The translations under genes were made by a program, and so were the position numbers. From assembly GCA_007449985.2 (NCBI GenBank), contig VIIQ02000136.1, positions 1 through 64,000 of the forward strand: 64,000 bases of DNA. The letters are read 5' to 3'. The notes under the pieces are model-generated. The model was not told where the DNA came from and ran no database searches. It saw only the letters and a list, made by a program, of their open reading frames with translations. Below, piece after piece: positions 32,273 to 55,589 of the stretch; position 1 is the first letter of the stretch, and each line of letters begins with the position of its first letter. The DNA is from Desmodesmus armatus. Lineage: Eukaryota; Chlorophyta; Chlorophyceae; Sphaeropleales; Scenedesmaceae.

Positions 32273-35200
32273 TCATCCCCTCCCTGGCCGTCCTTCTGCA
32301 TCGCTAGCCAAGTGGCGGTCATCATGGCTTGACGGCCCTGCATCCGAGTCTTTGCTGCCTTTCAGCACACCCAAAACCGGTTCCCTCAATCCTGCACTTC
32401 CTGTCCCATCGCGTCCTGCACTCTGCATGGCACTTTCCCGCTCTGCGTTCAGCACAGCATACTTCTCCTGCCTGTCCAGCACATGCTGCAGGAGGGTGAT
32501 GGTGCCCAGCCCTGCCCCACACACCCCTGCCCACGTGCTGAAGCTTCCGCCGTATGAAAAGCAGAAGATGACGATGCCCAGGCTCACGTTGGCGAGGCCG
32601 ATCAGCATGGCGGCACGGCCGAGGGTAGTGTGAATGACGTCCCAGATGTGGCGGCGGCGTGCAAGGCTTGCGCGGGTGTTGGCGTGCGGACGCACGAAGC
32701 CGACAAGGAGCTGCATGCAACAGGGAAGCAGGCGGCATTAGATGTTGTACCGTACGTAGCGGCTAGAAGCTGGCAGCTGAATGGATGCAGAGCACTGCAG
32801 TGGCCCACTGGCATACATGCCGTACTCGTGATGCTTGCTGTGTTTGCCACAACAAACATGCATGTTGCAGTGTCACGGGCTGTACAACGTTTACGCTGGC
32901 ACCGCACTGCAGACAAGTTCTTTGCTGGCCTCTGCTTTTGTTGACAGCATACGCTAGCAGCAGTGCCACAGCGCATGATGAACCGTTGGATGGTCCATCA
33001 AACCAGCGCGTCACTGTCAAATCCACCCACAGGCTTGGGCTGTGTTGTGAGCAAAAGGCTACCGGATGTTGCGGGGACATGTATTAGGCTACATATCCGC
33101 ATGATTCCATCAGGGTTGTACTCGTAACCCCTTGGATAGGGCACAACACGTTACCACACGCGACTTCTCCGAGTCCGTGACTGGTGTTGCTCCTACTTCG
33201 CAACACGCCGCCCACCTACAACGGCCGGCGTCTCGACGGCCATACGCGAGACCCACTCGAGATCGCTTTGGTTGTTTCGGACGATCGCCTTTGCTGGGAT
33301 TCGATCCCGATACGCCAGGGTTGCAGGCCAGGCGCTCTAAGAGTGCACTAAGGCCTCACCTGTTCTCCGCTACCACATGTTGTGAGCAAAAGGCTACCGG
33401 ATGTTGCGGGGACATGTATTAGGCTACATATCCGCATGATTCCATCAGGGTTGTACTCGTAACCCCTTGGATAGGGCACAACACGTTACCATCCCATGTA
33501 ACCCTGGGCATGCCGTAAAACTGCCTCGCATCAGCACGGCGCTGCAACATGTGCCAGGGGCTGTCCCAGCCCAGCCTCGCTGGTGTGTTTCGCCCCTATT
33601 ATAGTCAGTAGTTATTCCTCTTGTGTCTGTGCCGCGGATCAGGAGGCAGCCTGTGCAGCACGGGCTGAGCTCAGCCATCGCGATGTGCTGACGTGGGTCT
33701 TTCACGTCGGCCGCGCGCTGGGGTTGTTGTGTCGTCCCTTGTTTTTGTTGGTGTCTGTGTTTGTGTTGTGGCTGTTTCGGACCAGCGTTTGGCCAGCACA
33801 GTGGGCTGTCGGACCGGTGGGGCAGTGGCAGTTGACAGCAGTAGCTGGAGAGCTGGAGCTGGAGCTTGAGCAGCAGCTGGCGTGCAGCATCACGCACAGT
33901 GTTGATTATCTTCACTGTGCCGTGGTTTTTGTCGCGTTTACAGCAGCAGCAGCAGCAGCAGCTTTGGCTGGATCAGCAGCAGTCCGCTGAGTCAGCAGGC
34001 AGGACTGGTGTGCAGCAGCAGTGGCAGCAGAACACAGGCAAGGGCCATGCAGTGGCCTTGGGCCTGGTTGTAGGGGGCAGTGTTGCTGGCCTGTGAACGG
34101 TGCAGGTGCTTGGGCGCGCTGACTTGGGGCAGCCCGGTATACACAGGTGTCGCTCTGACACCCCGGGCACCTGTCTTGGGGGTGTGTATCGCAGCACAGC
34201 TGGAGCCTTTCTTCCACATTGTGTTCGAAGTGGTCGCCCCGGGGCATGGGGGTGTGTGTTCGGCTTGGTACTTGTGGAAGCCCTCTTGTCTGTGTGGCTG
34301 GCTTTGTGGGGTTGAAGCCTTGCCTGTGGTCCCCTCCTTTCAGACAGTCTCCTCTGCAGACATCTATGGTGGCGGGTTCTCTCCTTTCCATGCTGTCTGT
34401 TCCCGTCCTTGTAGGTCCTGCAAGGACGGGCTTTGGTTCCCTTCCGATGCTGGGTGTCGTTGCAGCGTAGCTGCGTGTGTCGCCCTGTAACCCCTTCTTC
34501 TTCTTCTTCTTCTTCATCCCATGTAACACCTTCATTCATTCAAAACACGTTACCATCGGCACATAGGGGATAGTGTGCGGCTGCTGCAGCTGCTGCCCCA
34601 GGTGCTGCGTGCCCGCCACCAAACAGCCATAGCTGCTTTCCTGGACTTCAGGAAGGCTTATGACACTGTGTCGAGGGAGTTTCTGTTTGCAGCTGGGGAG
34701 ACCCTTGGGGTGGGTGCCGGGTTTCTGCAGTGGATGAAGCTGCTGTTGACAGACACTCTGACATGTGCAGTTGTCAACGGCTTTCAGAGCTCTTTCTTTC
34801 AGTGTGGTGCTGGGGTTAGGCAGGGCTGCCCCCTGGCACCCCTGATGTACCTGTTTGCAGGGCAGGCGTTGCTCTGCCATCTGAAGCAGTGTGGCATTGG
34901 TATTGATGTTGCAGCCGGCAGGCTGGTCGCCACACAGTATGCTGATGATGTGGAGCCCCTCCTGCCTGGGGAGGCTGATGTTTCTGGTCTGCTGGAGCAT
35001 TTGTCGGTGTATGGGGATGCTACAGGCCAGCGGGTGCAGCCGCCCAAGTGTCAACTGTTGCCTTTGGGCCAAGCGGTGGTGGACCCTGCCCCTGTGGCAG
35101 GCATGGCGGTGCGTGACACCTGCAAAAGCCTGGGGGTTGTCTTTGGCAGTGTGGGGGTGGTTGGAGTGGATTGGGCGCATCGGCTGGGCATTGTGCGGGA

Positions 35201-38200
35201 ACGGGTGCAGAGGATCAGCCGCATCCCTGACCTGTCCATGTTTGGTCGTGCTTTTGCGTTCAATGGGTATGCCATCTCCACACTGTTGTATCATGCACAC
35301 TTTGCTGGGGCCCTGCCAGCTGAGCATGCCAGGCAACTTATCAAATGGGCCTCTGCCCTTGTTGATGCTGGCCTGGGCCCTGATGATGATCAGCGACGGG
35401 CACCAGGGGTGCCCAGGGCGTGTATGGAGGCCCACCCTAGGGAGGGAGGTTTGGGTCTGCTGCCAGTGCGGGCCCACCTTCACTCTCGCCTGGCTTGTGA
35501 GGCAGTGCAAGTGTTGGTGGGGGATGCTCGCAAGCCTTGGGTTGCAGTCAGCAGGGAACTGTTGCAGCACCATGTGCCGGTGGTGCCTGGTGGGGGTTGT
35601 TGGGGCTTGGCCTTGTGTGACAGGGGTCGGTTGTTCAGGGACGCTGGGGGCCAGCTGTTGCCAGACCCCTTGCGTGCTTTTGCCCTTGGCATCAGGGCTC
35701 TGCCGTATATTCGCCATGTGGGCGCTAACCCGGTCCAGCCCGGCCCGTGGTGTTACTATGTCCCATTGTGGTCCAATCCGGTGGTGGCGCAGAGGGAGCA
35801 GTGGGACTGGTATGGACAGCAGCGACAAGTGATGGTGGGGTTGGAGTTTGTTGTGCCTGACTTGTTTGGCCTCCCCCAGCTACAATGTGCAGGGCAGGCG
35901 CTGCATTGGCTGCAGCTGGTTGAGGCTATCTGTTCCATCCCTGACCTGGGGGCAAGGGAGGAGGCATACAGGATGCATGTGTGGGACCCTGTGTTGCAGC
36001 ATCGCCCTAGGTATGCTAACGTGGTGGTGGCTAGGGAGGAGCTGGCTGTGTTGGTGGCGGCAATCCCTGGTGCGTGGCAGGATGCAGCACGTGTAGTGCT
36101 GCGGGGTAGGCCATCCGGGCGGCTGCCGGCCGTTTCAGAGGCTCAGCTTACCGCAGCTAGGGACAGGGTGTGTGCTGATCTGGGTTGGCATACTCGCAAT
36201 GGGGATGTGGTGGAGCTTAAGTCCCTCACTGTGTCGCTGGCCACCCAGTGTCAATCCTTGGATGCGCTGTCAGCCATTGCTGACAGGCATGCTGCCTTCC
36301 GTCAGAGGGTGTTGTCTGTTGATATGTTGCAGCCAATTGTGGGCGAGTTGCCCGAGGTCACTCGGGTGCTTCGGCGGTGGTGGAAGCTGCGTGTGCCTAA
36401 TGAGCACAAGGAGGCTGCATGGCGGCTCACCCTCGATGCGTTCCCTACGGCTCAGCGCATGCACACAGGCACCTCTTGTGTAGCCTGTGGGGCTGCGGAG
36501 CCCGGTGTACAGCACCATTGTTGGGAGTGTCCTGTTGCAGGGGCGGTGCGGGCGGAGATTGAGGGGCAGTTGCGAGCTCACCGGGTGGGCGACAGCCCCC
36601 CTTGGTTGGCTGCTGATCGCGGCCTGCAGTGTGCAGCTTTGTGGATGGGGGTGAAACCTCATCCCCGGCTGCATCATGTTGTGTGGGACATGGTGTGTCT
36701 GGCTGGCATAGGTGCTGTTGACTTTGGCCGCAGAGTGGCTTGGGCTGTGGCAGCAGAAGGCCCTGCACTGCCTCTGCTGACGGTAGAGCGCATTGCAGGG
36801 CGTGCTGCTGTTGGGGAGTTTTGGCGCGTCTTGGCTGACTTTGCGGTTTCTGCAATCATCCCTAAGCGGGCGCAGGGGCTTGCGCTCACACAGCAGCCTT
36901 TCATTGCATGGCATGTTGTGCTGTCAAGAGGCAACGGTTTGCGAGTAGTTGGGCATTGAGCGTCTGCATGTGTTGACATGTGAGTTGTTGGCTGCTGTGT
37001 GACTTCTGTTCTGCTGGCTTGTGAACAGTGCAGCGACCGGTGGTGTCGGTGAAGTTGCCCCCACGTACGCCCACTGCAACATGTGGGAGTGGTTTGTGGC
37101 TCGCAGCTGTGTGTTCGCTGTTTTCTGTTCCGTCCGCCCTTTCTTATCGCAACCCTGCAGGTGCGAGAAGCAGTGCCGTTGGCGCCATTCAGTCCTTCCA
37201 GTGTATTATATCTCTGTTTTCGCAATCTGGAAGCACACTGCGTGTGCGTGACAAGCTTTTGATGGTGGGGTTTGTCCGAACGGCCCCCTTCCGTACTGGT
37301 TGTGTCCATCCGTGGCTGGGTTCAGTTGCAACGTAGTTGCTTGAGAAACCCGTGTAACACCTTCATTCATTAACACGTTACCACACGCGACTTCTCCGAG
37401 TCCGTGACTGGTGTTGCTCCTACTTCGCAACAGGCTGTCTGCTTCCCTTTCAAAGCCTGTGGCAGTGTGACTGCGCGCTGCTACACATCATGTGTGCCGC
37501 ACACCAACATGCAGAACCTGGTGCCTCATATTGTCACAATAAGGCTCAAAGCCTGGTGGCATGGCATGCCACCGCTCACCTGCAGGTACACTATCACCAG
37601 TATGGCTACGCCCAGCTTGCCGTGGCCATACTGCACCTCATCGTAGGGCACCTGGAACCACTTTGTGGCCAGCACAAACCCAGCAGTGGCCACAGCAACG
37701 CCGGTCACCTGCACAACGAACAAGCCCAGTGACAAACGGTCATTGCAGGCGGGGCCACCCATAAGTGACGTGGCAGCCATGATTATGAGCCATGGCATGG
37801 CACCAATGCTGCCCGGCATGTGACATGGCATGTTTGGACAAATCCAAGTGAGGCATGCTGTGAATTTCCCTTCATGACAACTTGATCAAACATTTGGCTG
37901 GGCGTAGTGAATTTGGAGGCCCTGGCAGTATACCACCCTCAGGTGAGTACTGCAGTCCTGCTGCCAGTTATATCATTATACATCGCGCACGGCACTACTG
38001 CCAGAACTGACTCAAGAGTCACGCCGCACGCCAAGTTGCTGCTGGACCGACAGTACTGCCAGTTGAACTGAACCCCTGGGGTCAATATGAACTTGGGGCT
38101 GCACACCTGCGTGAAGACATGCAGGTAGAACATTGACGCTCGGACCGCAGGAGAGCGCAGCCAGTGGCAGCGCAGCTGCCTCGCCGCAAGCGCTCCCAAG

Positions 38201-41200
38201 GGAAAGATCCCAATGAAGTTCACAGCCATCAAGATGCCATGTGTCTGGCGCAATGTGATGGCCCTCCCACCTACTGCCTTATGTGTTGATGCGGCCCCAA
38301 ACAGACCTTCATTCAGCTCAATGACCTCGCGATTGGACGTCCTGGATGAAGTCACATGCAGGCGTGTGCAATAGATCAAGCATTTGCCAATGGGTGCCAT
38401 TTGAGTAAGGCAATATGGCAGGCCACATGCCAAGCGTCATGCAGGTCATCTGCCAAGCCCTGCATGCAGAATGTTCAAAGTTTGCTGCAGGCCCTGCAGG
38501 CTGGCAGTATTGACAAGCATTATAAGCACGACAGGCTTGAGCTTGTGAGCTCACCGTCCTCGTGGTTGATTAGCTCGGCTGTCATGCTGCCACCTGAGGG
38601 CCTCACATAATAGCGCTAGCGGCCCGGTCCGGGTGACACTCACCCATGGTAGCCCTGCATGCTGCTGATGTCGTTGCTGGGCCCTCGTGCTACAATGAGC
38701 CTGAGAGAACTGGTGGCAGGCATGGCAATGTCGGGACCATCACCATCTGTGGGCCGCTCAAACTCAAGGCGCACTGCTCCCTGCTGCTGCTCATACCTGC
38801 GAGGGCGCACACAGGACAGCGGCGCGTCAATTGACATCGGTTGCAAGTTCCCTCAGCAGAAGCAAGATATCAAAACGCAGATCAGCTGATGGTGTTGGTA
38901 CTGACAGTACGTGGATTTGTTCCTCAGGATTGAATCCAGCACCATCTTAGCATGGGATGCCAGCCGCTGGCGCAGTGCGCCCCAGTGTAGTGGCTGCACA
39001 CCAGCTACAACGCATTCCAAAGAGGCTACTAGCCTCTTAGCCAATCGTAGTACGATTACAGGTCACCTAAAGTTGCAACATGTAGGAGGCCTGGCAAAGC
39101 TTGTTCACAACCATCTGAACTTTGCGCCTGACGACGATTTGGGCCTGGCACATGGCGATTGCCTCGCACAGCACCTACTTGACGTTACGCAGGCGGCCAG
39201 CCTGAGACTCAGCAGGGACTGGAGTGGGTGGCTGGTGACCAGTTGGCTTGTATCGCATCACCTGCACACACGCGCACAAAGACCTGAACTTGGCTGATAC
39301 TAAAAATCAGTGAGGCCGCCTCAGGAGGTTTTTGCGTCACAAAGGCGGCATCAAAGGATACAGCTCAGGTTCATGAGCCTGATGATCATCAGGTCAACAC
39401 AGCATGCAAGGCCCAAGCCACTTGCCTGTGGGGTGCCATCAGCCATGCGGCCAATCACCATGTCTGCACCAATCATGGCCGATGGTGAGCCTGCAGCACG
39501 ACACAGCATCAGCACTTGGACCCCAATCGACACTGCACTGCACGTTGCAAGTCACCACTGTACCGCTGGTACAATACCGTTGACAGTGTCAAGTAGTGCA
39601 CCGGCATGCAAGCATGGACAAGGCATGCAGTCACAGGAAAAAAAGGCCATGCAGCTTGGAGCTACCCGGCAGCACCATCAACAGCCAGCCCATCAACTGT
39701 CTCAAGCACTGCAGTGCGCAGGTAACACCGCTGGCGCTGGTACCAGCAATGGCCATCATCAGCAGTAGCCACCTGTGTAACTAGCACACATCCATAGTCT
39801 GCGCAGTCTCTACAGCAGCGGATGTCATCTTGGGGCCCAAGAAAAGCACTGTTCCTATTTCAAGATGAACCAGCCTACTAAAGTGCACAGACCTGGGTCC
39901 GCCACACCAAAGCCCAGCCATCCCGAGCTGCTGCTGCTGAGAGTGACCTTCACCCAGCCTGGCTCACTGCCAGGCTCAACCTGCAGGGCTGCATTGCCCC
40001 CCAACAATGCCGGCAACACCAGCTTGCTGCGTCTACCACCAGCAGCAGCTGAGCTGCCGCCCTGCAGGTTGTTGGCGCCCGCTGCACAGGTCATGGCGCT
40101 TGTGGCTGTCCAGATGTCTGTAGGCAGGTCCTTGATGGATGTGGTGCGCAGGAGGATGTCGCGGAGGCCTGAGCAATCACAGGTAGGGGCACACAGCAAA
40201 TAGCGTTCGGAACTGAAGCTTTGAAGATTGTATAGAAAGGTGCTTGTCAGCTGCCTCCCAGGTTCTTGAATGTGGCGCACAACCCTCAACTGGAAAATGC
40301 AAGAAGGGAAGGCCGCAGATAAGCTCGTGGTGACCAACAGAACACACTGTAAATGCTTGTTTTATGTTCGTGCAAAGCAAGGCGTGAGCGTACAGCCAGC
40401 TCAATCACCGAGGTGCCGACAGGCTAGGCTAGCACTGGCATCATCTGAGTTATGACGAGGGCGGCTCTCACTTGTACTGCGGATCTCTGCAATCTCCTCT
40501 TCGCTGTACAACTTGTTGTTGGCCCCGTTCTCGTAGTACCACCAGTCAGCGTCCCTCAGGCGCACAAACTGCTCCTTGATGCTGGCCGCAAACAGGGGGC
40601 CCATGTGGGCACCACCCTGGGGCTGCTCAGCTAGGCCACCCACGTAGGGGTCTGCAGGCAGTTCAAGGGACGGCGTGTGAAATGAGAAGGTGCTGGCATG
40701 CCGCATGACTCAGTGAGTCAGCCATTTCCTTTGGCCACAGCCTGCAGAATGTCACCCGCTGTCCTTGCCAGAATGGCCGCGCAACAAAATCAAGTCACGC
40801 AACATCAGTGATGCTGTGCGGCAGCCAGTTGCAATAAGTGAAAGAACTGCTAAGGTTCAGGTGCCGGCAGGTGCCCTCTGTTGCCCTCTCACCTATGTTG
40901 TTGACGTTGCCGTACAGCTCCTGCAAGGTTGCAGCTATCTGCTTGTCTGGCGTGATGTCTGAGAAGCTCTTGACAGCAGGGAGGCCAAAGGCGCGCCTGC
41001 AGGTGTTGTAGTCGGGCACGCCATGGTCCCTCGCCCTCTGGATGTTGATGGCGGCAATGTCCGTGCCTGTAGCAGCGAGGATACACGTTGACGGCACGGC
41101 TCAGGAGCACGAACAGCATGCTCTGATGCAAACTATGCACGAATCATGCGAATCAAACGTACCGTTGACGCCAGACTGCCCGGCAAAGTTTCCCGCCATC

Positions 41201-44200
41201 GCCAGTGAGAAGCGTGGCTCTACCTTCCCTTTGCGCTGCGCAATCATGCCTCTGATGAGCGGCTCCAATCCCGCCTCCAGCGCGACATTGGGATTGAAAA
41301 ACGCGTCCATCATCAGCAAGTGACCCTTCGGATGTTCTGCCCACGACTCGTCGAGGCGCAGCACGACGTCGTTGATCGTAGAGTGACCGTAGCGATAGGC
41401 CACTGTCGTGAAGAATGTGTCGATGGAGGGATTTAATGATGCATTGTAACCTGCAGCAAACAGTAGCAGAGATGCAGCGTGCCTGAGGCTCAACTCAGAT
41501 TGCCTTCCCCTGGCTGCATCGCTGTTACGGTCACTGTGACATGGTTCAGGCATGCCAGAACACCCCGCAAGGAGCCATCACACAGACCCGGGCTGCATGC
41601 GATGGTGCCTGGTTTTGATGCAAGGGACAGACATTGCAGACAAGGTTAGCTGGTATGCACCTTTGTAGGGGGACAGCGCCAGCCCAATTGCAACCATGTA
41701 GTCAACAAGGGCGATGCGCTGGAAGTGGCCAATCACCCACCTGCAGGGCAGCGAGCGGCAAGGCAAGGGACATGTTTAGCCCACTTGCCGAGGCCTACAC
41801 CAAACAGTCGACACAGTAATGTTAGCATTCCTCAACCAGCAACGTTGCTGGCCGCCAGCCCTCAGGCTTAGGCTAAGTGCACTCTTCAAGAGTACATGAT
41901 GATCATGCAGTGCGTGATGGCCCTTTGACAAGGAGCCGGGCTGCTGGAAGTGCCATCCTGCGATAGGCTGGGCAGGCTGCACTCTCCGTGCAGTACCGCA
42001 GGGAAGAGTCATCGCCTGGTGAATCACTTGACATGTCCAACCATCTAGCGAGCAGCCTACATAGTATGTTCAATAGTTTATCCTGGCCGGGCACTGTACG
42101 CCCCTCCAAAAAAGGCCCGCCCATGCCGGGCACACAAGTGCCACTCAGTGAGACAGCCGCTAAGGCATACTCACTTTCTGGCCTCTTTCTGCCACAGCGG
42201 CTGCCTAGCATGTGTGCCATAGCGGCTGCCTGACATGTGTGCCATACTGTGTGACTGACTCACTTTCTAGCCTCCTGGAAGATCTCCTGGTCTCCCCACT
42301 CAGGGTTGGCAGATTCCACCAGCCTCGCACGCCTGTTGTGCTCACGAACCATTATGGTAGTGATGCTCAGCAGCAGGGGGTTCTGGTTGACGTTGGCATT
42401 GCCAGACAGCCTGCAGGCCACAGCAGGACAGTCCGTCGGGCTGTCATGGGATGCCCATGCCCAGTACTGGCCAGTTTTGCTGATCACCAGCTTCAAGCTA
42501 GGCTTGACCGATTGGCCATTTGCTGTTACAGAGAAAGGCTGTGCACTCAGTGCCCGGGCCGAGAGTCGGCAGTGGGCTGGTCCTAAGATACTGTGTCGGA
42601 CAATGGCAGCCTTCCGGGCTGAAGCAGACTTTCTGGGTTGCGCTGCTTACCGTAGCTGCGTCTGCGGCAGCCGTTGTGCAGTGTTCTTCAGTTCGGCCAG
42701 CGGCTGGCCCGAGTCTGGGTCCTGATTCAAAGGTAGCAGCCTGCCTTCATCCATCAGCAAGCGCCCAGCAGTACCTAAAGCACGTGATCACATGCAGGAA
42801 TGAGTCATCCTCATGATGGTCACGATGTTGTCACTGTGCTGGTAGCATGGCTGCGTACATGCGGCATGTACCACATTCATGTCTGTACACGAGCTAGGAA
42901 CTGCCTATGCCGCTTGCTACTTGTCACTGCCCTAGCGAAGTGATTTGCCAATCCAGTAGTACTGAGCTAGTAGCTTTGTGAGAATGTTGCTCTCAGAGCA
43001 GCGGCTGCAGTGCTGCAGGCACTGCGTCAAGTGAACCACTCACCGGCTCTGATGGTGCGTGCGGTTTCAGGGGCCTGCCCATAAATGCTGGAGGCATCCA
43101 GCCAAGCTGTTGCCTCGTTGATCTGCTGACGGGGCGCTGTAGGAGATGACCTGCATCGGCAACAGCGGCAACAACAACTTGTTGCCAGGCTGGCGCAGTG
43201 GGGCATGGGCCATTTGATGGCGCATTGGCAACAATACTATCATCTTATGTGGTATCCCACTGATGACAAGATGGCTTGTCACATGTTGGTCATGTCATAC
43301 GGTTGACAGAAGCATGCACACACCATTTTACCCCGGATCTACTTTTGGCACTGCCTTGAAGGCTGGGCCTGCTCGCCATGTAGCACAGACGCCCTGGTGT
43401 TCCACCTGTTCTGGTGCCTGTGTAAGCAATGTGGAGGGGTTGGGGATGTGCAAGGCTCTATTGCAGGACAGGCGATGCGCGCATGCCAAACCAGTGGTGC
43501 ACAGTGGCACTGAAGCCTGTTACCGTAAAAGCGGCTTTGTACTGCACTCAGCACCGCGACAGTGCTGCTGGCAAGACCGAGGTCCTGCTTGACTTGGGAC
43601 TGCCACCGTGCGGCGGCGGCAACGGCGTTGCCGACTGGGGGACTCCCCACCAACTGGCCGTCAGTTGGTGCCGCACCAACTTGAAGTCGCAGTGACTCAG
43701 CTACAACTCACCGTGTGTAGTTGGCCCTAGTGAACGGCAGGCTGCTCCTGCTGCCCTGCGCAATAGGCAGCTGTGTTGCGTTGTCAAATCTGGACAGGTA
43801 GGGGTCAGCTGGGGGCACCGGGATGTTGGCGGCATCATTGGCGGATCCATTGTCCTTGGCCACACCACCACGGTTGATGTCCGCAGCTGCAGGACACAAT
43901 GCCAATGAGTCATGGGCAGCACCGCCAGCAGCACTCTTTCAAAATGATGTTGCAAGCCAGCGTCCTGCCAGGACGTGAGGCTCACAGTAGCATACTTGTG
44001 CAGCATCTTGACAGGATCGACAGGATGACATGCCAGAGTGCTGTTGATGCCGTTGGGCCAGCCAAAGAAGCAATTAAACACTGCTCTCCCATCAGTAGCA
44101 TGGGTGGACTCACAGATGAGTTGGCCGACTGCTGCTGCCAGGATGCTGCCGTTGGTGTTAGACACTGCCTTGAAGTAGGGCTTGTGCAGCAGCGCCAGGG

Positions 44201-44971
44201 TGATGGCACGTGCAGACGGGCGGTTGGCTCCCTGCAGGGCAAGGACAAGACGAAGACAAGACGACACAGCCGTTGTCGAGCGACATTGAGACCTGCGACT
44301 GTGCGTCTCAGTTTAAGCCCAACAGTGGCGTGGAACGGTGCTTGACACCAAGGTTGGTGACACCGTGCCACAGTGCTGCTGCTGCTGTTGAAAAGCTGCT
44401 GAGCAGCTGCCAGCTGCTCAGCTCTGAGACTTGCTGAGCAGCTGAAGAGCTGCTGATCTGCATATTGACAGTGATGTGGGGCAGCTCCAGGATGCCCCAA
44501 GAGCTCACCGCGAGGGCATCCGAGCCGTTGGTGCTCTGCCTGAACAAAGCCTCTGGCACTTGCACATGCGTGAAGACACTGCCAGCCTTCCTGCAGTCAG
44601 CAGCATGGCCATGCAATGCTGTCACAGCCCCCTGAGAGGGCACCCCTCATGAGGTCCATGCATGGATCAGGTCCATGCATGGAGCCACTATCATAAGAAA
44701 AGCTATTCGGCAGGTCATCTGGTTGCCACGTGTGGTGTACAGGCACACCATGCATGCATAGGAGGACCCAATTATGTTGATGCACGGCTGCTTTGGTCCC
44801 CAGCTGGAGATCGCTGCCAGTGGCTTACCCCCAGCTAGGATTGTTGGCATTGTTTCCAGAACCATCAAACGTTGGGTACACGGGCTTAGAAACAGACTGG
44901 TTTTGTGACTGCCCAGCTGTCAATGTGGCACACCACACCAGGAGCAGCAGCACAGGAACGTTAACCATCAT
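32273..44971 (-). CDS. Heme peroxidase-DOMON-cytochrome b561 fusion, copy A (complete)
   Basis: Reconstructed from splice sites and phase. Exons: 44971-44829, 44590-44509, 44231-44114, 43886-43712, (a short exon not located), 43136-43044, 42774-42651, 42410-42264, 41740-41661, 41450-41163, 41066-40893, 40651-40472, 40168-39893, 39490 to about 39422, (one unlocated), 38796-38644, 38593-38555, about 38263-38107, 37708-37580, 32710-32273. All located joins keep phase except around the two unlocated exons. A signal peptide (MMVNVPVLLLLVWCATLTAG) leads into an animal-type peroxidase, DOMON, and four b561 helices: about 950 aa, peroxidase outside, b561 in the membrane. The fusion is not an annotation join: exon 40168-39893 alone encodes the peroxidase end (SLRDILLRTTSI) and the DOMON start. 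Likely role: a transmembrane electron shuttle feeding or draining an extracellular peroxidase (inference). Confidence 0.8.
33043..33354 (-). mobile_element. SINE-like element with tRNA-like head
   Basis: Read on the - strand, 33354-33287 looks tRNA-derived: a 7-bp acceptor-like pairing with one mismatch (GCCTTAG/CAAAGGC), TTAGAGCGCC, and a box B-like GGGATCGAATCCC. The anticodon stem pairs poorly, so it is not a working tRNA. The body (33286-33206) and a 163-bp tail (33205-33043) follow; the tail is repeated in the neighbouring copy. It has the same orientation as the host gene, inside its intron. Confidence 0.55.
33378..33491 (-). mobile_element. Second SINE tail, interrupted by LINEs
   Basis: A 114-bp perfect copy of 33043-33156 (offset 335). 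Its remaining 49 bp (same as 33157-33205) lie at 37384-37432, on the far side of the two LINE copies. The element lacks the tRNA-like head, so it is 5'-truncated or a tandem tail unit. Confidence 0.7.
33492..34543 (+). mobile_element. Non-LTR retrotransposon (LINE), 5'-truncated copy 1
   Basis: It ends TGTAACACCTTCATTCATT plus a short A-rich tail, matching copy 2, and shares with it GCCTGTGAACxGTGCAG and the GTTGCAxCGTAGxTGC motif near the 3' end. No reverse transcriptase is left: only a 3' untranslated-like 1.05 kb, with a (TTC)n run at 34496-34516 and a hairpin-like GTCCTTGTAGGTCCTGCAAGGAC at about 34409-34431. Flanked by the 12-bp AACACGTTACCA on both sides. Confidence 0.7.
34544..34555. 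repeat. 12-bp LINE target site duplication (middle of three)
   Basis: AACACGTTACCA stands before LINE copy 1 (33480-33491), between the copies (34544-34555) and after copy 2 (37372-37383). An uninterrupted version is in the neighbouring SINE tail at 33145-33156. So both copies entered the same site one after the other. Confidence 0.85.
34556..37371 (+). mobile_element. Non-LTR retrotransposon (LINE), 5'-truncated copy 2
   Basis: A 2.8-kb copy beginning inside the reverse transcriptase and ending TGTAACACCTTCATTCATT. The 5' part (endonuclease, start of RT) is missing. The 3' UTR is about 410 bp. It is antisense to the host gene. The coding frame is intact to its stop, suggesting a fairly recent insertion. 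Flanked by the same 12-bp target as copy 1. Confidence 0.85.
34575..36959 (+). CDS. LINE reverse transcriptase, N-terminally truncated
   Basis: 794 codons open with no ATG at the truncation point. RT blocks: FLDFRKAYDTVSREFL (about residues 22-37), GVRQGCPLAPLMYLF (about 77-91), QYADD (catalytic, about 115-119), GQRVQPPKCQLLPLG. Near the C-terminus a zf-RVT-like element, CVACGAAEPGVQHHCWEC, follows AAWRLTLDAFPTAQRM. No RNase H is recognised. The long opposite-strand frame at 34536-35828 is its shadow. Confidence 0.85.
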   Translation: MRLLQLLPQVLRARHQTAIAAFLDFRKAYDTVSREFLFAAGETLGVGAGFLQWMKLLLTDTLTCAVVNGFQSSFFQCGAGVRQGCPLAPLMYLFAGQALLCHLKQCGIGIDVAAGRLVATQYADDVEPLLPGEADVSGLLEHLSVYGDATGQRVQPPKCQLLPLGQAVVDPAPVAGMAVRDTCKSLGVVFGSVGVVGVDWAHRLGIVRERVQRISRIPDLSMFGRAFAFNGYAISTLLYHAHFAGALPAEHARQLIKWASALVDAGLGPDDDQRRAPGVPRACMEAHPREGGLGLLPVRAHLHSRLACEAVQVLVGDARKPWVAVSRELLQHHVPVVPGGGCWGLALCDRGRLFRDAGGQLLPDPLRAFALGIRALPYIRHVGANPVQPGPWCYYVPLWSNPVVAQREQWDWYGQQRQVMVGLEFVVPDLFGLPQLQCAGQALHWLQLVEAICSIPDLGAREEAYRMHVWDPVLQHRPRYANVVVAREELAVLVAAIPGAWQDAARVVLRGRPSGRLPAVSEAQLTAARDRVCADLGWHTRNGDVVELKSLTVSLATQCQSLDALSAIADRHAAFRQRVLSVDMLQPIVGELPEVTRVLRRWWKLRVPNEHKEAAWRLTLDAFPTAQRMHTGTSCVACGAAEPGVQHHCWECPVAGAVRAEIEGQLRAHRVGDSPPWLAADRGLQCAALWMGVKPHPRLHHVVWDMVCLAGIGAVDFGRRVAWAVAAEGPALPLLTVERIAGRAAVGEFWRVLADFAVSAIIPKRAQGLALTQQPFIAWHVVLSRGNGLRVVGH
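37433..37579. other. Host intron remnant beside the SINE tail
   Basis: Single-copy intron between the truncated SINE and the b561 exon at 37580. Nothing recognised. Confidence 0.4.
38644..40168 (-). other. DOMON domain, copy A
   Basis: Exon 40168-39893 encodes KLVLPALLGG, GWVKVTLSSSSSGWLGFGVA; exon 39490 to about 39422 encodes SPSAMIGADMVIGRMADGTP; exon 38796-38644 encodes GAVRLEFERP and LRLIVARGPSND. These are the three core DOMON blocks (wlgfG, MxGADxvi, vxFxRp...iwA). DOMON domains bind heme or sugar on the non-cytosolic side and commonly precede cytochrome b561. The donor after exon 39490 is uncertain, and one short exon between 38.8 and 39.4 kb is unresolved. Confidence 0.8.
40472..44971 (-). 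other. Animal-type heme peroxidase domain, copy A
   Basis: Family landmarks in order: FDGSGNNANNPSWG, GANRPSARAIT, GQLISADINRGG, PADPYLSRFDNATQLP, RQQINEATAWLDASSIYG, LPLNQDPDSG, VREHNRRARL (catalytic Arg), AYRYGHSTI (proximal heme His), INIQRARDHGVPDYN, VGGLAEQPQGG, and RLRDADWWYYENG. The FDGSGNN/ANRPSARAI start is that of bacterial and algal members rather than mammalian ones. In the distal motif GQxxDHDx of myeloperoxidase the Gln and second Asp are kept, but Asp94-His95 read Ser-Ala across the 44114/43886 splice. Exon 43136-43044 does not join exon 43886-43712 in phase, so a short exon between them is missing from the model. Confidence 0.85.
41111..42432. repeat. 1.3-kb tract identical between duplication units
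   Basis: 41111-42432 matches 51704-53025 base for base as far as I can read (offset 10593), across three peroxidase exons and their introns. The sequence on either side shows substitutions every few tens of bases. Confidence 0.8.
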
Positions 44972-49399: not shown

Positions 49400-50819
49400 G
49401 AAACCTGGCACTGCAGGTGTGCAGTTAGTGTCAACAGTGCTCATACCCAACATTGCCATACGCAAGATGGCACAGGACTGGGCACAAGCCCACCCCGCAT
49501 ACCAACAGCAGCAGCGTGCCGATGACGCCTCGGCAGCAGGTGCAGTCGCCCTGCGACAGCAGCACATGCACTCCAAAAGCTACGATGTCAAGCCCTTTGC
49601 TGCTGACCAAGGCAAACCGCCCAGTGGGCTGCCAAAAGCACCAACAGCACCATTCAGCCTGCAGCCTCAGACATCAGCAGCCTTGGCAGCTGCTGCTAGC
49701 TCACCAGCCACTGCAGGCAGTTCCAAACCTTTGAGCGGCTACACAGGCTACACCTCTAGGGTGTGCAGCTACCCTATCAACCAGGACAGCACCTCTAGCA
49801 GCCTGCTGGACCTGCCAGCTAAGGCTGCACCATCAGCAGCAACCTATGCTGCTGATGTTGCTGCCACCGCTGCTGCTGCTGCGGCACACAGCACTTGCAC
49901 AGTCGCGCAAGCTGCGGCACAGAGCACCTACGCAGCCGCGCAAGGTGCAGCAGGTTGCAGTGACGCTGCCGCGCAAGGTGCCGCAGATTGCACAGAGGCA
50001 GCAGCGTGTGGTGCCGCAGACAGCAGTGCCGCCGCAGCAGCCGCGCAAGGTCAGTTCAGCGCTGGAAGGCCACCACCAAGGCTCACCAGGTCCATGCCAG
50101 CAAAAGCTGCAGAGGACAAAGCGGGCGCCTGCAGCAGTAGCCTGTGGGGTGCCATCAGCCATGCCTGTGGGGTGCCATCAGCCATGCGCCCGATCACCAT
50201 GTCGGCACCAATCATAGCCGAGGGGGAGCCTGCAGCACGTGTTCACACAGCATCAGCAAAACCCCAACTGTTGGCTGCAATTTGCAACTCACCACTATGG
50301 CAAGCAGTACCTTGCCATGCAAGCATCACAAGGGTTGCTTGCAATCACCACTCAGAAACATTATGCGCAGACAGAAACAGCCACACCCAAGAGAAGCCGC
50401 AGAGTCTGCACTACTTGCCGATCAACCAGCCCATGGCCGTGCACACACCTGGGTCCGCCACACCAAAGCCCAGCCATCCCGAGCTGCTGCTGCTGAGAGT
50501 GACCTTCACCCAGCCAGGCTCACTGCCAGGCTCAACCTGCAGGGCTGCAGCTCCCCCCAACAATGCCGGCAGCACCAGCTTGCTGCGTCCACCAGCAGCT
50601 GAGCTGCCGCCCTGCAGGTTGTTGGCACCCGCTGCACATGTCATGGCGCTTGTGGCTGTCCAGATGTCTGTAGGCAGGTCCTTGATGGATGTGGTGCGCA
50701 GCAGGATGTCGCGGAGGCCTGGGCAATCACAGGAAGGGGCACACAGCAAACAGCGTTTGGAACTGAAACTTTGGAGTTTGTGTAGAAAGGTGCTTGTCAG
50801 CTGCCTCCCAGGTTCTTGA
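45479..50819 (+). CDS. U-box protein, copy A, with chimeric antisense-derived tail
   Basis: Ten exons by splice sites and phase: 45479-45513, 45777-45830, 46035-46149, 46462-46546, 46819-46916, 47184-47327, 47729-47785, 48188-48283, 48571-48778, 49417-50819 (764 codons). Exons 1-9 keep length modulo 3 with copy B. The U-box is PVDLLCPITLKLLEDPVILV, TYERGAIQEWLDRG, joined over the intron to LVSTVLIPNIAIRKMAQDW. At 50140 homology to copy B stops. The frame continues for about 226 codons through sequence that is the antisense strand of peroxidase B DOMON exons. Function as E3 ligase is inferred from the U-box. Exon 8 has a GTGATC donor where copy B has GTGAGC. Confidence 0.75.
50141..50186. repeat. 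23-bp direct duplication at the tandem junction
   Basis: 50141-50163 and 50164-50186 are identical 23-mers beginning CCTGTGGGGTGCC. The same 23-mer occurs once at the corresponding DOMON site in unit A (39425-39447). It marks the exact novel joint between U-box A and peroxidase B. Confidence 0.9.
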
Positions 50820-53800
50820 AAAGCAGTGCGCGGCATGATGTGGCGCACACCCCTCAACTGGAACATGCAAGAAGGACAAGCCGCAGATAAGCTCGTAGTA
50901 CCAACAGAACACACCGTAAATGCTTGTTTAATGTTCGTGCACAGCAAGGCGTGAGCGTGCGGCCAGCTCAATCACTGAGTTGCTGACAGGCTAGGCTAGC
51001 ACTGGTATGGCAAATGATGACGGTCCTCACTTGTGCCACGGATCTCTACAATCTCCTCCTCGCTGTACAGTTTGTTCCTGGCCCCGTTCTCATAGTACCA
51101 CCAGTCAGCGTCCCTCAGGCGGCCAAACTGCTCCTTGATGCTGGCAGCAAACAGGGGGCCCATGTGGGCACCTCCCTGGGGCTGCTCAGCTAGGCCACCC
51201 ACGTAAGGGTCTGCAGGCAGTTCAAGGGACGGCACGTGAAATGAGAAGGTGCTGGCATGCCGCATGACTCACTGACGGTCAGCCATTTCCTTTGGCCACA
51301 GTTTGCAGAATTTCCTTTGGCCACAGCCTGTAGAGTGTCACCCGCTGTCCTTGCCAGATTGGCCGCGCAACAAAATCAAGTCACCGTTGCGGCAACATCA
51401 GTGATGCTGTGCGGCAGCCAATTGCAATAAGTGAAAGAACTGCCAAGGTTCAGGTGCTGGCAGGTGCCTTCTGTTGCCCTCTCACCTATGTTGTTGACGT
51501 TGCCGTACAGCTCCTGCAAGGTTGCAGCTATCTGCTTGTCTGGTGTGATGTCTGAGAAGTTCTTGACAGAAGGGAGGCCAAAGGCGCGCCTGCAGGTGTT
51601 GTAGTCGGGCACGCCATGGTCCCTCGCCCTCTGGATGTTGATGGCGGCAATGTCCGTGCCTGTAGCAGCGAGGATACACGTTGACGGCACGGCTCAGGAG
51701 CACAAACAGCATGCTCTGATGCAAACTATGCACGAATCATGCGAATCAAACGTACCGTTGACGCCAGACTGCCCGGCAAAGTTTCCCGCCATCGCCAGTG
51801 AGAAGCGTGGCTCTACCTTCCCTTTGCGCTGCGCAATCATGCCTCTGATGAGCGGCTCCAATCCCGCCTCCAGCGCGACATTGGGATTGAAAAACGCGTC
51901 CATCATCAGCAAGTGACCCTTCGGATGTTCTGCCCACGACTCGTCGAGGCGCAGCACGACGTCGTTGATCGTAGAGTGACCGTAGCGATAGGCCACTGTC
52001 GTGAAGAATGTGTCGATGGAGGGATTTAATGATGCATTGTAACCTGCAGCAAACAGTAGCAGAGATGCAGCGTGCCTGAGGCTCAACTCAGATTGCCTTC
52101 CCCTGGCTGCATCGCTGTTACGGTCACTGTGACATGGTTCAGGCATGCCAGAACACCCCGCAAGGAGCCATCACACAGACCCGGGCTGCATGCGATGGTG
52201 CCTGGTTTTGATGCAAGGGACAGACATTGCAGACAAGGTTAGCTGGTATGCACCTTTGTAGGGGGACAGCGCCAGCCCAATTGCAACCATGTAGTCAACA
52301 AGGGCGATGCGCTGGAAGTGGCCAATCACCCACCTGCAGGGCAGCGAGCGGCAAGGCAAGGGACATGTTTAGCCCACTTGCCGAGGCCTACACCAAACAG
52401 TCGACACAGTAATGTTAGCATTCCTCAACCAGCAACGTTGCTGGCCGCCAGCCCTCAGGCTTAGGCTAAGTGCACTCTTCAAGAGTACATGATGATCATG
52501 CAGTGCGTGATGGCCCTTTGACAAGGAGCCGGGCTGCTGGAAGTGCCATCCTGCGATAGGCTGGGCAGGCTGCACTCTCCGTGCAGTACCGCAGGGAAGA
52601 GTCATCGCCTGGTGAATCACTTGACATGTCCAACCATCTAGCGAGCAGCCTACATAGTATGTTCAATAGTTTATCCTGGCCGGGCACTGTACGCCCCTCC
52701 AAAAAAGGCCCGCCCATGCCGGGCACACAAGTGCCACTCAGTGAGACAGCCGCTAAGGCATACTCACTTTCTGGCCTCTTTCTGCCACAGCGGCTGCCTA
52801 GCATGTGTGCCATAGCGGCTGCCTGACATGTGTGCCATACTGTGTGACTGACTCACTTTCTAGCCTCCTGGAAGATCTCCTGGTCTCCCCACTCAGGGTT
52901 GGCAGATTCCACCAGCCTCGCACGCCTGTTGTGCTCACGAACCATTATGGTAGTGATGCTCAGCAGCAGGGGGTTCTGGTTGACGTTGGCATTGCCAGAC
53001 AGCCTGCAGGCCACAGCAGGACAGTCTACTAGTAGGCTGGCATGGGATGCCCATGCCCAGTACTGGCCAGTTTGGCTGATCACCAGCTTCAAGCTAGGCT
53101 TGACCGATTGGCCATTTGCTGTTACAGAGAAAGGCTGTGCACTGGGGCCGAGAGTCGGCAGTGGGCTGGTCCTAAGATACTGTGTCGGACAATGGCAGCC
53201 TGCCGAGCTGAAGCAGACTTTCTGGGTTGCGCTGCTTACCGCAGCTGCGTCTGCCGCAGCCGTTGTGCAGTGTTCTTCAGTTCAGCCAGCGGCTGGCCCG
53301 AGTCTGGGTCCCGATTCAAAGGTAGCAGCCTGCCTTCATCCATCAGCAAGCGCCCAGCAGTACCTGAAGCAGGTGACACATGGAGGAATGAGTCATCCTC
53401 ATGATTGTCACGATGTTGTCCCGTGCTGGTAGCATGGCTGCGTACATGCGGCATGTACCACATTCATGTCTGCACACGAGCTAGGAACTGCCAAAGCCTA
53501 TGACACTTGCTGCTTGTCACTGCCCTAGCGAAGTGGTTTTCCAAACCAGTAGTACTGATAGCTTTGTGAGGATGTTGCTCTCAGAGCAGTGGCTGCAGTG
53601 CTGCAGGCACCGCGTCAAGTGAACCACTCACCAGCTCTGATGATGCGTGTGGTTTCAGGGGCCTGCCCATAAATGCTGGATGCATCCAGCCAAGCTGTTG
53701 CCTCGTTGATCTGCTGCCGGGGCGCTGTAGGAGATGACCTGCATCGGCAACAGTGGTAACAACAATGACAACACTGGCGCAGTGGGCCATGGGCCATTGA

Positions 53801-55589
53801 GTGGAGCATAGACAACAATACTATCACTGAAGGCTTCAAGGCTTACGTATCCCACTGATGACATGATGGCCTAGGCGCCTGTCACATGGTGGTCATATGA
53901 CATGCATGTCATACTTGACAGAAGCATGCACACACCATTTGGCCCCAGATCTACTTTTGACACTGCCATGAAGGCTGGGCCTGCTCGCCAAGTAGAACGG
54001 ACGCCCCGGTGTTCCACCTGTTCTGGTGCCTTTGTAGCTACAAAGGCTTACGAAAGCCGTACAGTTTGAATGTGGAAAGGTTGGGAATATGCAAGGCTCT
54101 ATTGCAGGACAGGCGATGCGCGCATTCCGTATGCCAGAGCGGTGGTGCATGCACAGTGGCACTGAATCCTGTTACCGCTTTGTACCAGTTAGCACAGCGA
54201 CAGTGCTGCTGGCAAGACCGAAGTCCTGCTTGACTTGGCACTGCCACCGGCGGCCGCGGCAACGGCGTTGCCAACTGGGGGACTCCCCACCAACTGACCG
54301 TCAGTTGGTGCCGCACCAACTTGAAGTCGCAGTGCACTAGTGACTCAGCTACAACTCACCGTGTGTAGTTGGCCCTAGTGAATGGCAGGCTGCTCCTGCT
54401 GCCCTGAGCAATAGGCAGCTGCGTCGCATTGTCGAATCTGGACATGTAGGGGTCAGCTGGGGGCACCGGGATGTTGGCGGCATCATTGGCGGATCCATTG
54501 TCCTTGGCCGCACCACCACGGTTGATGTCCGCAGCTGCAGGACACAATGCCAATGAGTCATGACTCATGATCATGGGCAGCACCGCCAGCAGCACCCTTT
54601 CAAAATGATGTTGCCAGCCAGCGTCCTGACTCACAGTAGCACACTTGCAGCATCTTGACAGGATGACATGCCAGAGTGCTGTTGATGCCGTTGGGGCAGC
54701 CAAAGGAGCATTCAAACACTGCTCTCCCATCAGTAGCATGGGTGGACTTACAGATGAGTTGGCCGACCGCTGCTGCCAGGATGCTGCCGTTGGTGCCAGA
54801 CACTGCCTTGAAGTAGGGCTTGTGCAGCAGCGCCAGGGTGACAGCGCGTGCAGACGGGCGGTTGGCTCCCTGCAGGGCAAGGACAAGTCAACACAGTCGT
54901 TGCAGTGACAGTGACACGTAGAACTGTGCGTCTCAGGTGAAAACCCAGTGGCATGGAACAGTGCTTGACACCAAGGCTGGTGACATCATGCCACAGTGCT
55001 GCTGCTGCTGCTGCTGCTGTTGAAGAGCTGTTGAGCAGCTGCCAGCTGCTCAGCTCTGAGACCTGCTGAGCAGCTGAAGAGCTGCTGATCTGCATATTGA
55101 CAGTGATGTGGGGCGGCCCCAGGATGCCCCAAGAGCTCACTGTGAGGGCATCTGAGCCGTTGCTGCTCTGCTTGAACAACGATTCTGGGACGTGCACATG
55201 CGTGAAGACACTGCCAGCCTTCCTGCAGTCAGCATGGCCATGCGATGCTGTCAGGGGGCACCCCTCAGGTCCATGCATGCATGCATGCGCGTGGAGCCCC
55301 CATGGGCATGGAGCCACTCTTAACAAGGTAAGCTATCCAGCAGGTCATCTGGTTGCCACAGGCACACCATGCTGCACAGGAGGACCCGGTTATCTTGATG
55401 CACGGCTGGTTTGGTCCCCATTTGGAGATTGCTGCCAGCCGCTTACCCCCAGCTAGGATTGTTGGCATTGTTTCCAGAACCATCAAACGTTGGGTACACG
55501 GGCTTAGAAACAGACTGGTTTTGTGACTGCCCAGCTGTCAATGTGGCACACCACACCAGGAGCAGCAGCACAGGAACGTTAACGACCAT
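50164..55589 (-). pseudogene. Peroxidase-DOMON copy B, truncated before b561
   Basis: Starts at the ATG at 55589 (MVVNVPVLLLLVWCA). All located peroxidase exons of copy A are present with the same splice sites, e.g. INIQRARDHGVPDYN (51486-51659) and AYRYGHSTI. The distal motif again reads GQLI then SADI. It continues into the first DOMON exon (about 50718 to 50449) and the GSPSAMIGADMVIGR exon, then runs into the duplication joint. The third DOMON block and all b561 helices are absent. It could still yield a secreted, unanchored peroxidase; I call it a pseudogene because the gene is structurally incomplete. Its 3' end overlaps the U-box A frame antisense. Confidence 0.75.

Follow-up and report, generated by a model that had tools for sequence, protein, structure and literature searches.

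A green algal gene that joins an animal-type peroxidase domain, a DOMON domain, and a cytochrome b561, with the distal heme-side residues of the peroxidase domain replaced

The window, a 64,000-nucleotide stretch of a Desmodesmus armatus contig, contains on its minus strand a chain of 18 exons running from 44971 to 32273, which together give 2997 nt and a single 998-amino acid frame with no internal stops. All introns of this gene are of the GT-AG type save one GC-AG intron (donor at 39425). Exon 1 (44829..44971, minus strand), supported by spliced alignments and the hand-made model, carries the start codon at 44971, a signal peptide-like hydrophobic stretch at residues 1-20 (44971-44912, minus strand; hydrophobic 19-mer at residues 1-19), and the beginning of the peroxidase domain. 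The encoded protein matches three Pfam families, all above their curated gathering cut-offs: An_peroxidase (PF03098; residues 32-555, exons 1-12, 40122..44878, minus strand; 416 bits, 2.6e-124), DOMON (PF03351; residues 615-719, exons 12-15, 38682..39944, minus strand; 41.4 bits, 1.9e-10), and cytochrome b561 (PF03188, Cytochrom_B561; residues 766-899, exons 16-18, 32573..38241, minus strand, a span that includes a 4.9-kb intron; 27.9 bits, 3.2e-6). No family beyond these three was found for the protein in Pfam at E 0.1, and the best sequence match of the peroxidase head among solved chains was 8s6c. The b561 part has all four heme histidines (H766, H806, H839, and H880) and, from residue 767, four separate hydrophobic stretches, with a fifth 19-mer overlapping the fourth. 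By alignment, the DOMON domain keeps the heme-ligand pair Met637 and His731 (39476-39474 and 38648-38646, minus strand), such that the protein shows the CYBDOM features of a DOMON followed by a b561 in one chain, four b561 histidines, and a DOMON Met/His pair. A sequence-only reading of the window had proposed a phase-consistent chain from a signal peptide through peroxidase and DOMON to a b561 with four histidines, and the 998-residue frame with its three domains bears this out.

A first hand-made model with 19 exons and 1002 amino acids contained a doubtful 47-nt mini-exon (38601-38555) and a following exon starting from 38306. Spliced alignment of three related proteins (P0001, P0123, and P0002, described below) superseded both with a single exon 16 (38107..38341, minus strand); the searches for relatives used the first 1002-residue model, or part thereof, as query. 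With P0001 from Scenedesmus as the spliced-alignment query, both ends were identical in 15 of the 18 final exons, the mismatches being exon 1 (shorter at the 5' end), exon 7 (start at 42440 versus 42410, with an unchanged end), and exon 18 (not within the scanned stretch). The 42440 acceptor of exon 7 was rejected since the P0123 and P0002 queries gave 42410 and the corresponding exon of a paralogue on contig C783 is likewise 147 nt long, while two exons placed by the P0001 query beyond 37580 were dropped as spurious. Exons in the DOMON region came out partly different with the P0123 and P0002 queries on the window and with the P0001 query on C783; those retained were from the P0001 query on the window and the window-protein query on C783, and in both models certainty is lowest for the middle of the DOMON domain.

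The peroxidase domain ends (residue 555, 40122) and the DOMON domain starts (residue 615, 39944) within exon 12 (39893..40168, minus strand; spliced alignments and Pfam), with the linker between them, as the sequence-only reading had stated. The counterpart of exon 12 in the C783 paralogue is split by an intron in the linker. Exon 18 (32273..32710, minus strand; hand-made and corrected models) encodes the last part of the b561, the tail, and the stop, and lies past the 4.9-kb intron, which holds a reverse-transcriptase open reading frame; a 404-base intron followed by the matching exon occupies this position in the C783 paralogue. The reverse-transcriptase frame (34527-36959, plus strand, opposite to the gene) is 810 amino acids long, matches RVT_1 with 56.8 bits, and by its look is a LINE-like insertion within this last intron.

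In the D. armatus genome (115.8 Mb, 831 contigs), 15 peroxidase matches fell on three loci with five each, namely the window gene, a tandem copy, and contig C783. The C783 paralogue (gene start at 100306) has all three domains and 69% amino acid identity to the window protein over 913 aligned codons. The tandem copy (50165..55589, minus strand; spliced alignment) contains a signal peptide-like start, a complete peroxidase-like domain with the motif GQLISAD, and the first DOMON exons. The copy was ended at 50165 by analogy with the window gene, no exon for the rest of the DOMON or for b561 was found downstream of 50165 (tblastn, E 1), and exons forced there by the aligner were dropped as spurious. 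Segment 50165-55589 corresponds to 39426-44971 as a tandem segmental duplication approximately 10.6 kb apart with 86-93% identical DNA; the copy differs from the window gene with dN 0.017 and dS 0.097 and shares two identical 60-codon blocks with it, suggesting a recent duplication, probably with conversion.

Between the window gene and the C783 paralogue, dN/dS was 0.24 over the 913 codons, with 0.22 for the head, 0.27 for the linker plus DOMON, and 0.18 for the b561 (dS 1.4, near saturation). These values used a cut C783 end and changed to 0.19 for the b561 and 0.25 overall with read-through of the last intron. By dN/dS, all parts of the window gene are under purifying selection. The comparison of the tandem copy with C783 gave 0.196/0.77, and because the truncated copy also has low ratios, such a ratio alone is no proof of a working copy. 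A further b561 match in the same genome, on contig C117 (325017-326007, minus strand), is separate from the fusion.

Relatives were sought with the first-model protein by scoring the 7994 candidates that shared most words with it, yielding 225 proteins with E no higher than 1e-3 (best 120 listed). P0001 from Scenedesmus sp. NREL 46B-D3 (1237 amino acids, 44% identity over 89% of the query) has all three domains, and P0002 from Chromochloris zofingiensis has the peroxidase and DOMON domains and, by alignment, b561 histidines H1-H3, after which the model ends. Using the DOMON-b561 part as query gave four proteins, namely P0121 and P0122 (both Tetradesmus obliquus), P0123, and P0002. The first three have all three domains; as this search missed P0001, the lists of relatives are incomplete. 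The source of P0123 is labelled 'lgn', which we take to be the Logan assemblies. Its 1005 amino acids lie on a 3696-base contig, so that introns could occupy no more than 681 bases, compared to 17 introns in the window gene and at least as many in the C783 paralogue, from which we infer that the contig is transcript-derived. The fusion is thus present in Scenedesmus, Tetradesmus, and P0123, and its absence from every related genome, named earlier as a possible refutation, was not observed. Public databases already hold annotated entries of the type, such as 'heme peroxidase [Scenedesmus sp. NREL 46B-D3]'. These five proteins and the three D. armatus copies make up a group of eight labelled Chlorophyceae-type, Chromochloris and Tetradesmus being Chlorophyceae.

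Two larger fusions, P0003 (EukProt g480.t1) and P0124 (Bryopsis sp. KO-2023, Ulvophyceae), contain a peroxidase domain, three DOMONs, b561, cytochrome b5, FAD_binding_6, and NAD_binding_1. Their b561 matches (17.0 and 20.2 bits, respectively) are below the cut-off of 23, with all four histidines aligned. P0003 begins with an Spt4 domain that was taken for a model error, and the search yielding P0124 gave two other proteins, P0125 (several DOMONs plus b561) and a liverwort nitrate reductase. Across the Chlorophyceae-type and larger fusions, the DOMON Met was found in 10 of 10 rows and the DOMON His in 9 of 9 covered rows (with the last of the three DOMONs aligned for the larger fusions), b561 H1-H3 in 9 of 9 covered rows, and H4 in 8 of 8, a count that excludes the histidine of P0002 aligned at H4 as that model ends before it.

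A tree of 45 peroxidase domains, built with ten active-site positions omitted and with 35 domains hand-chosen from 118 comparison domains, set the eight Chlorophyceae-type rows apart by one branch (100/99), the two large fusions by another (100/99), and all ten fusion rows together from the 35 bacterial or metagenome rows (100/99). As animal, amoeba, and other eukaryotic peroxidases lie outside this tree, it does not establish a single origin of the fusion in green algae. An AlphaFold model of P0123 (mean pLDDT 74, pTM 0.58) showed a head and DOMON mostly above 80, a b561 at about 40-80, and a disordered linker at residues 483-548 (about 27-44); it was not used for domain arrangement, and Foldseek with this model confirmed the peroxidase fold and nothing more.

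These copies and relatives bear on whether the locus could be a gene-prediction or assembly artefact, two adjoining genes, or a pseudogene. The 4.9-kb intron with its reverse-transcriptase frame, the single GC donor, the adjoining truncated tandem copy, the middle DOMON exons that vary with some alignment queries, and a model derived from genomic sequence would all fit such an origin. However, a single exon contains the peroxidase-DOMON join, the domain order recurs in Scenedesmus, both Tetradesmus models, and P0123, and a full paralogue with dN/dS of 0.18-0.27 in every domain is present on another contig, such that an artefact is highly improbable. The earlier claim that the join is not produced by prediction stands as far as sequence can tell, as it lies within a single exon and recurs in relatives, and the fusion of three modules in one gene is confirmed at this level.

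In the peroxidase-cyclooxygenase superfamily, the signature GQxxDHD is described as holding the distal His, an ester-forming Asp, and a Ca-binding Asp, RxxE as holding the catalytic Arg and an ester-forming Glu, and the proximal His as bonded to an Asn (PMC4420034). The distal His-Arg pair is described as common to every heme peroxidase in the two superfamilies (PMC3533774). The corresponding positions were compared in an alignment of 128 domains, comprising the eight Chlorophyceae-type rows, the two larger fusions, and 118 comparison domains (116 proteins plus the two halves of P0004, from the best 120 of the 225 matches); the C783 protein in this alignment and in the tree had its final residues read through the last intron. 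The distal motif of the window protein is GQLISAD (residues 111-117, split between exons 3 and 4; 43879..44126, minus strand, including the intron), in which Ser115 replaces the ester Asp and Ala116 the distal His, with Gln112 and the Ca-site Asp117 kept. In the second distal motif (42383..42394, minus strand), Asn256 replaces the catalytic Arg and Gln259 the ester Glu. The proximal heme ligand His348 (41383..41385, minus strand) is kept, and Asn442 (41005..41007, minus strand), the residue at the position of its hydrogen-bond partner, is present.

The replacements extend over the group. The residue pair at the Asp and His positions is S-A in both the window gene and the tandem copy, S-Q in C783, T-T in P0001, and A-Q in P0123; the other three rows (P0002, P0121, and P0122) have no coverage there. 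At the Arg position the eight rows have N, N, N, S, V, T, T, and H, and the ester Glu is Q in seven of eight rows with E in P0123 alone. The distal His was therefore found in none of five covered rows and the Arg in none of eight, versus 114 and 117 of the 118 comparison domains, respectively. The one comparison domain without the Arg is the second half of P0004 (P0004b), which has a gap there. Of the four comparison domains in which the His is missing, one (P0090) is gapped at this position, two (P0062 and P0120) seem to be misaligned or cut, and P0004b alone has a true GQLISGD; P0004 is a tandem peroxidase, the second domain of which also lacks the distal His. The proximal His and Asn are kept in all eight group rows, as are R345 and R445, which we take to be the heme propionate arginines. 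Among covered group rows, the Ca site retains the first Asp in four of five (E in P0123), the Thr in five of six (S in P0002), the second Asp in six of six, and the Ser in five of six (N in P0002).

The 128-domain alignment and the counts at the Ca and Arg positions indicate that the distal side was lost and the heme-holding side kept. The loss is seen in three lineages, as three of the five rows covering the His come from one genome and two of these from a recent duplication. That P0123 shows it on a contig with no more than 681 bases beside 1005 codons speaks against a splice-site error as its cause. The head belongs to the superfamily by sequence (PF03098 and PDB matches) and by fold in the search with the P0123 model, and the proximal His and Asn residues expected of a catalytic peroxidase are present, while the distal His, the Arg, and the ester Glu are absent.

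The gene had initially been read as an independent way of coupling an extracellular peroxidase to transmembrane electrons, and the strong An_peroxidase match and the retention of Gln112, the Ca site, and the proximal side would favor a functional peroxidase outside the cell that is re-reduced or primed via b561 and DOMON. Nevertheless, the distal His-Arg pair said to be in all heme peroxidases (PMC3533774) is replaced in the window gene, as are both ester acids, of which the Glu is kept by P0123 alone of eight rows. A working peroxidase head is consequently not borne out for the window gene by its residues, and a classical peroxidase is here unlikely, being less probable than a heme-free scaffold and more probable than an artefact. 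The coupling proposed for the window gene is a better fit for the Bryopsis-type fusions P0003 and P0124, which keep the distal His and Arg.

The favored reading, given a probability of about 0.5, is that the b561 and DOMON form an electron wire, probably fed by ascorbate, with the peroxidase-derived head as its non-peroxidatic heme terminal. The protein would be a CYBDOM-type membrane protein with a large peroxidase-derived domain at its outer end, in which electrons, most likely from cytosolic ascorbate, would cross the membrane via the two b561 hemes and pass through the DOMON heme (Met637/His731) to an outer acceptor. The head would most likely still bind heme via the proximal His348, and, with the distal His/Arg and the ester-forming acids gone, would be expected not to form compound I at a useful rate. 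It may instead act as a reductive electron outlet rather than an H2O2-driven oxidant, with a ferrous heme that would slowly or selectively reduce O2, NO, peroxide, or an acceptor of the metal or quinone type. The low model confidence of the linker and b561 part in P0123 counts against this reading. The sequence itself shows the single gene, the domain order, the ligand residues, the lost distal pair, the conservation, and the low dN/dS, whereas we infer the electron route, the ascorbate donor, the heme in the head, and the terminal acceptor.

The main rival is a heme-free structural head that positions, protects, or docks partners such as the cell wall or another peroxidase, with the DOMON and b561 alone reducing ferric, cupric, or monodehydroascorbate acceptors. 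Precedents are the peroxidase homology domain of human DUOX1, described as having no heme ligand His and no heme density (PMC7794343), the docking role supposed for the peroxidase domain of Caenorhabditis elegans DUOX (PMC6411640), and HYP1, described as a DOMON-b561 ferric reductase without a peroxidase-type head (PMC10784544). A heme-free scaffold would not need the proximal His, the Asn, and the two arginines, yet all are kept in eight of eight group rows, and this alternative is considered rather doubtful, if clearly more plausible than a working peroxidase.

The probable donor of the heme-terminal wire was considered by comparison with Arabidopsis HYP1, a DOMON-b561 protein that is described as passing electrons from ascorbate in the cytosol to acceptors outside, ferric chelates among them, and whose modelled ascorbate site includes an Arg at H4-7 and an Asn at H4-3 (PMC10784544). 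Arg873 of the window protein aligns with the former, and an Arg at H4-7 occurs in all six group rows that reach this position and in neither large fusion. The Asn at H4-3 is found in none of the six group rows (D, D, Q, Q, Q, and E). With this reserve, the residues are consistent with ascorbate as donor in the window type and NAD(P)H in the large fusions, the latter being proposed because they have no H4-7 Arg and possess their own b5/FAD/NAD part.

The window protein resembles several known systems. CYBDOM proteins (Arabidopsis HYP1 and the animal reeler-DOMON-b561 protein SDR2/CG8399) share the Met/His DOMON followed by a four-His b561, and an outer N-terminal module such as reeler can precede these; however, the outer modules named in the consulted descriptions are reeler and one or more DOMONs, compared to a 520-residue animal-type peroxidase domain in the window protein. 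The earlier comparison with DUOX is apt in that both have an N-terminal peroxidase homology domain and a two-heme transmembrane electron carrier, and the peroxidase domain also lacks key residues in the human and C. elegans forms according to the available descriptions (PMC7794343; PMC6411640). In contrast to the NOX core, EF hands, and FAD/NADPH domain of DUOX, the window gene has a b561 core, a DOMON relay, and no flavin domain in Pfam at E 0.1, and human DUOX1 as described lost the heme ligand whereas the window gene lost the distal pair and kept the ligand. Judged by its domains, the window protein is not a DUOX, though similar in plan. Ferric-reductase-domain proteins with DOMON from Naegleria and oomycetes likewise use DOMON to transfer electrons on the outer side of a heme-bearing membrane carrier, but this carrier is a ferric reductase domain instead of b561, and the DOMON forms are described without a peroxidase domain in the part of the source consulted (PMC3591440). 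Relative to the peroxidase-cyclooxygenase superfamily (lactoperoxidase, peroxinectin, and bacterial and cyanobacterial peroxidases), the head shares the sequence match, the proximal His-Asn, the Ca site, and, for P0123, the predicted fold, but differs in its replaced distal His, Arg, and ester acids. No description of the peroxidase-DOMON-b561 order or of its distal-pair loss was found in a literature search of open-license PMC articles.

A broader and more tentative suggestion is that green algae, independently of animals, have evolved a DUOX-like family in which a peroxidase domain is wired to the cytosol via DOMON and b561 hemes. In the Bryopsis type, a single polypeptide would link NAD(P)H to a peroxidase that is active on the outside; the window type would take its electrons from ascorbate, and loss of the distal pair would have made its peroxidase a heme outlet without peroxidatic function, in effect a heme enzyme working in reverse, as a reductase. 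If true, the problem solved by DUOX would have been solved a second time from different membrane and relay parts, and the family would be a candidate molecule for electron flow across the plasma membrane of green algae. The paired distal loss and kept proximal side offer a testable case of a peroxidase turned electron outlet. The larger fusions are like the window gene in their peroxidase-DOMON-b561 order and neighboring clade in the peroxidase tree, and unlike it in the three DOMONs, the b5/FAD/NAD part, the retained distal His and Arg, and the lack of an Arg at H4-7. This larger form has the look of a full electron wire from NAD(P)H to the exterior within one chain, and the single-chain fusions P0003 and P0124 are perhaps more striking than the window gene.
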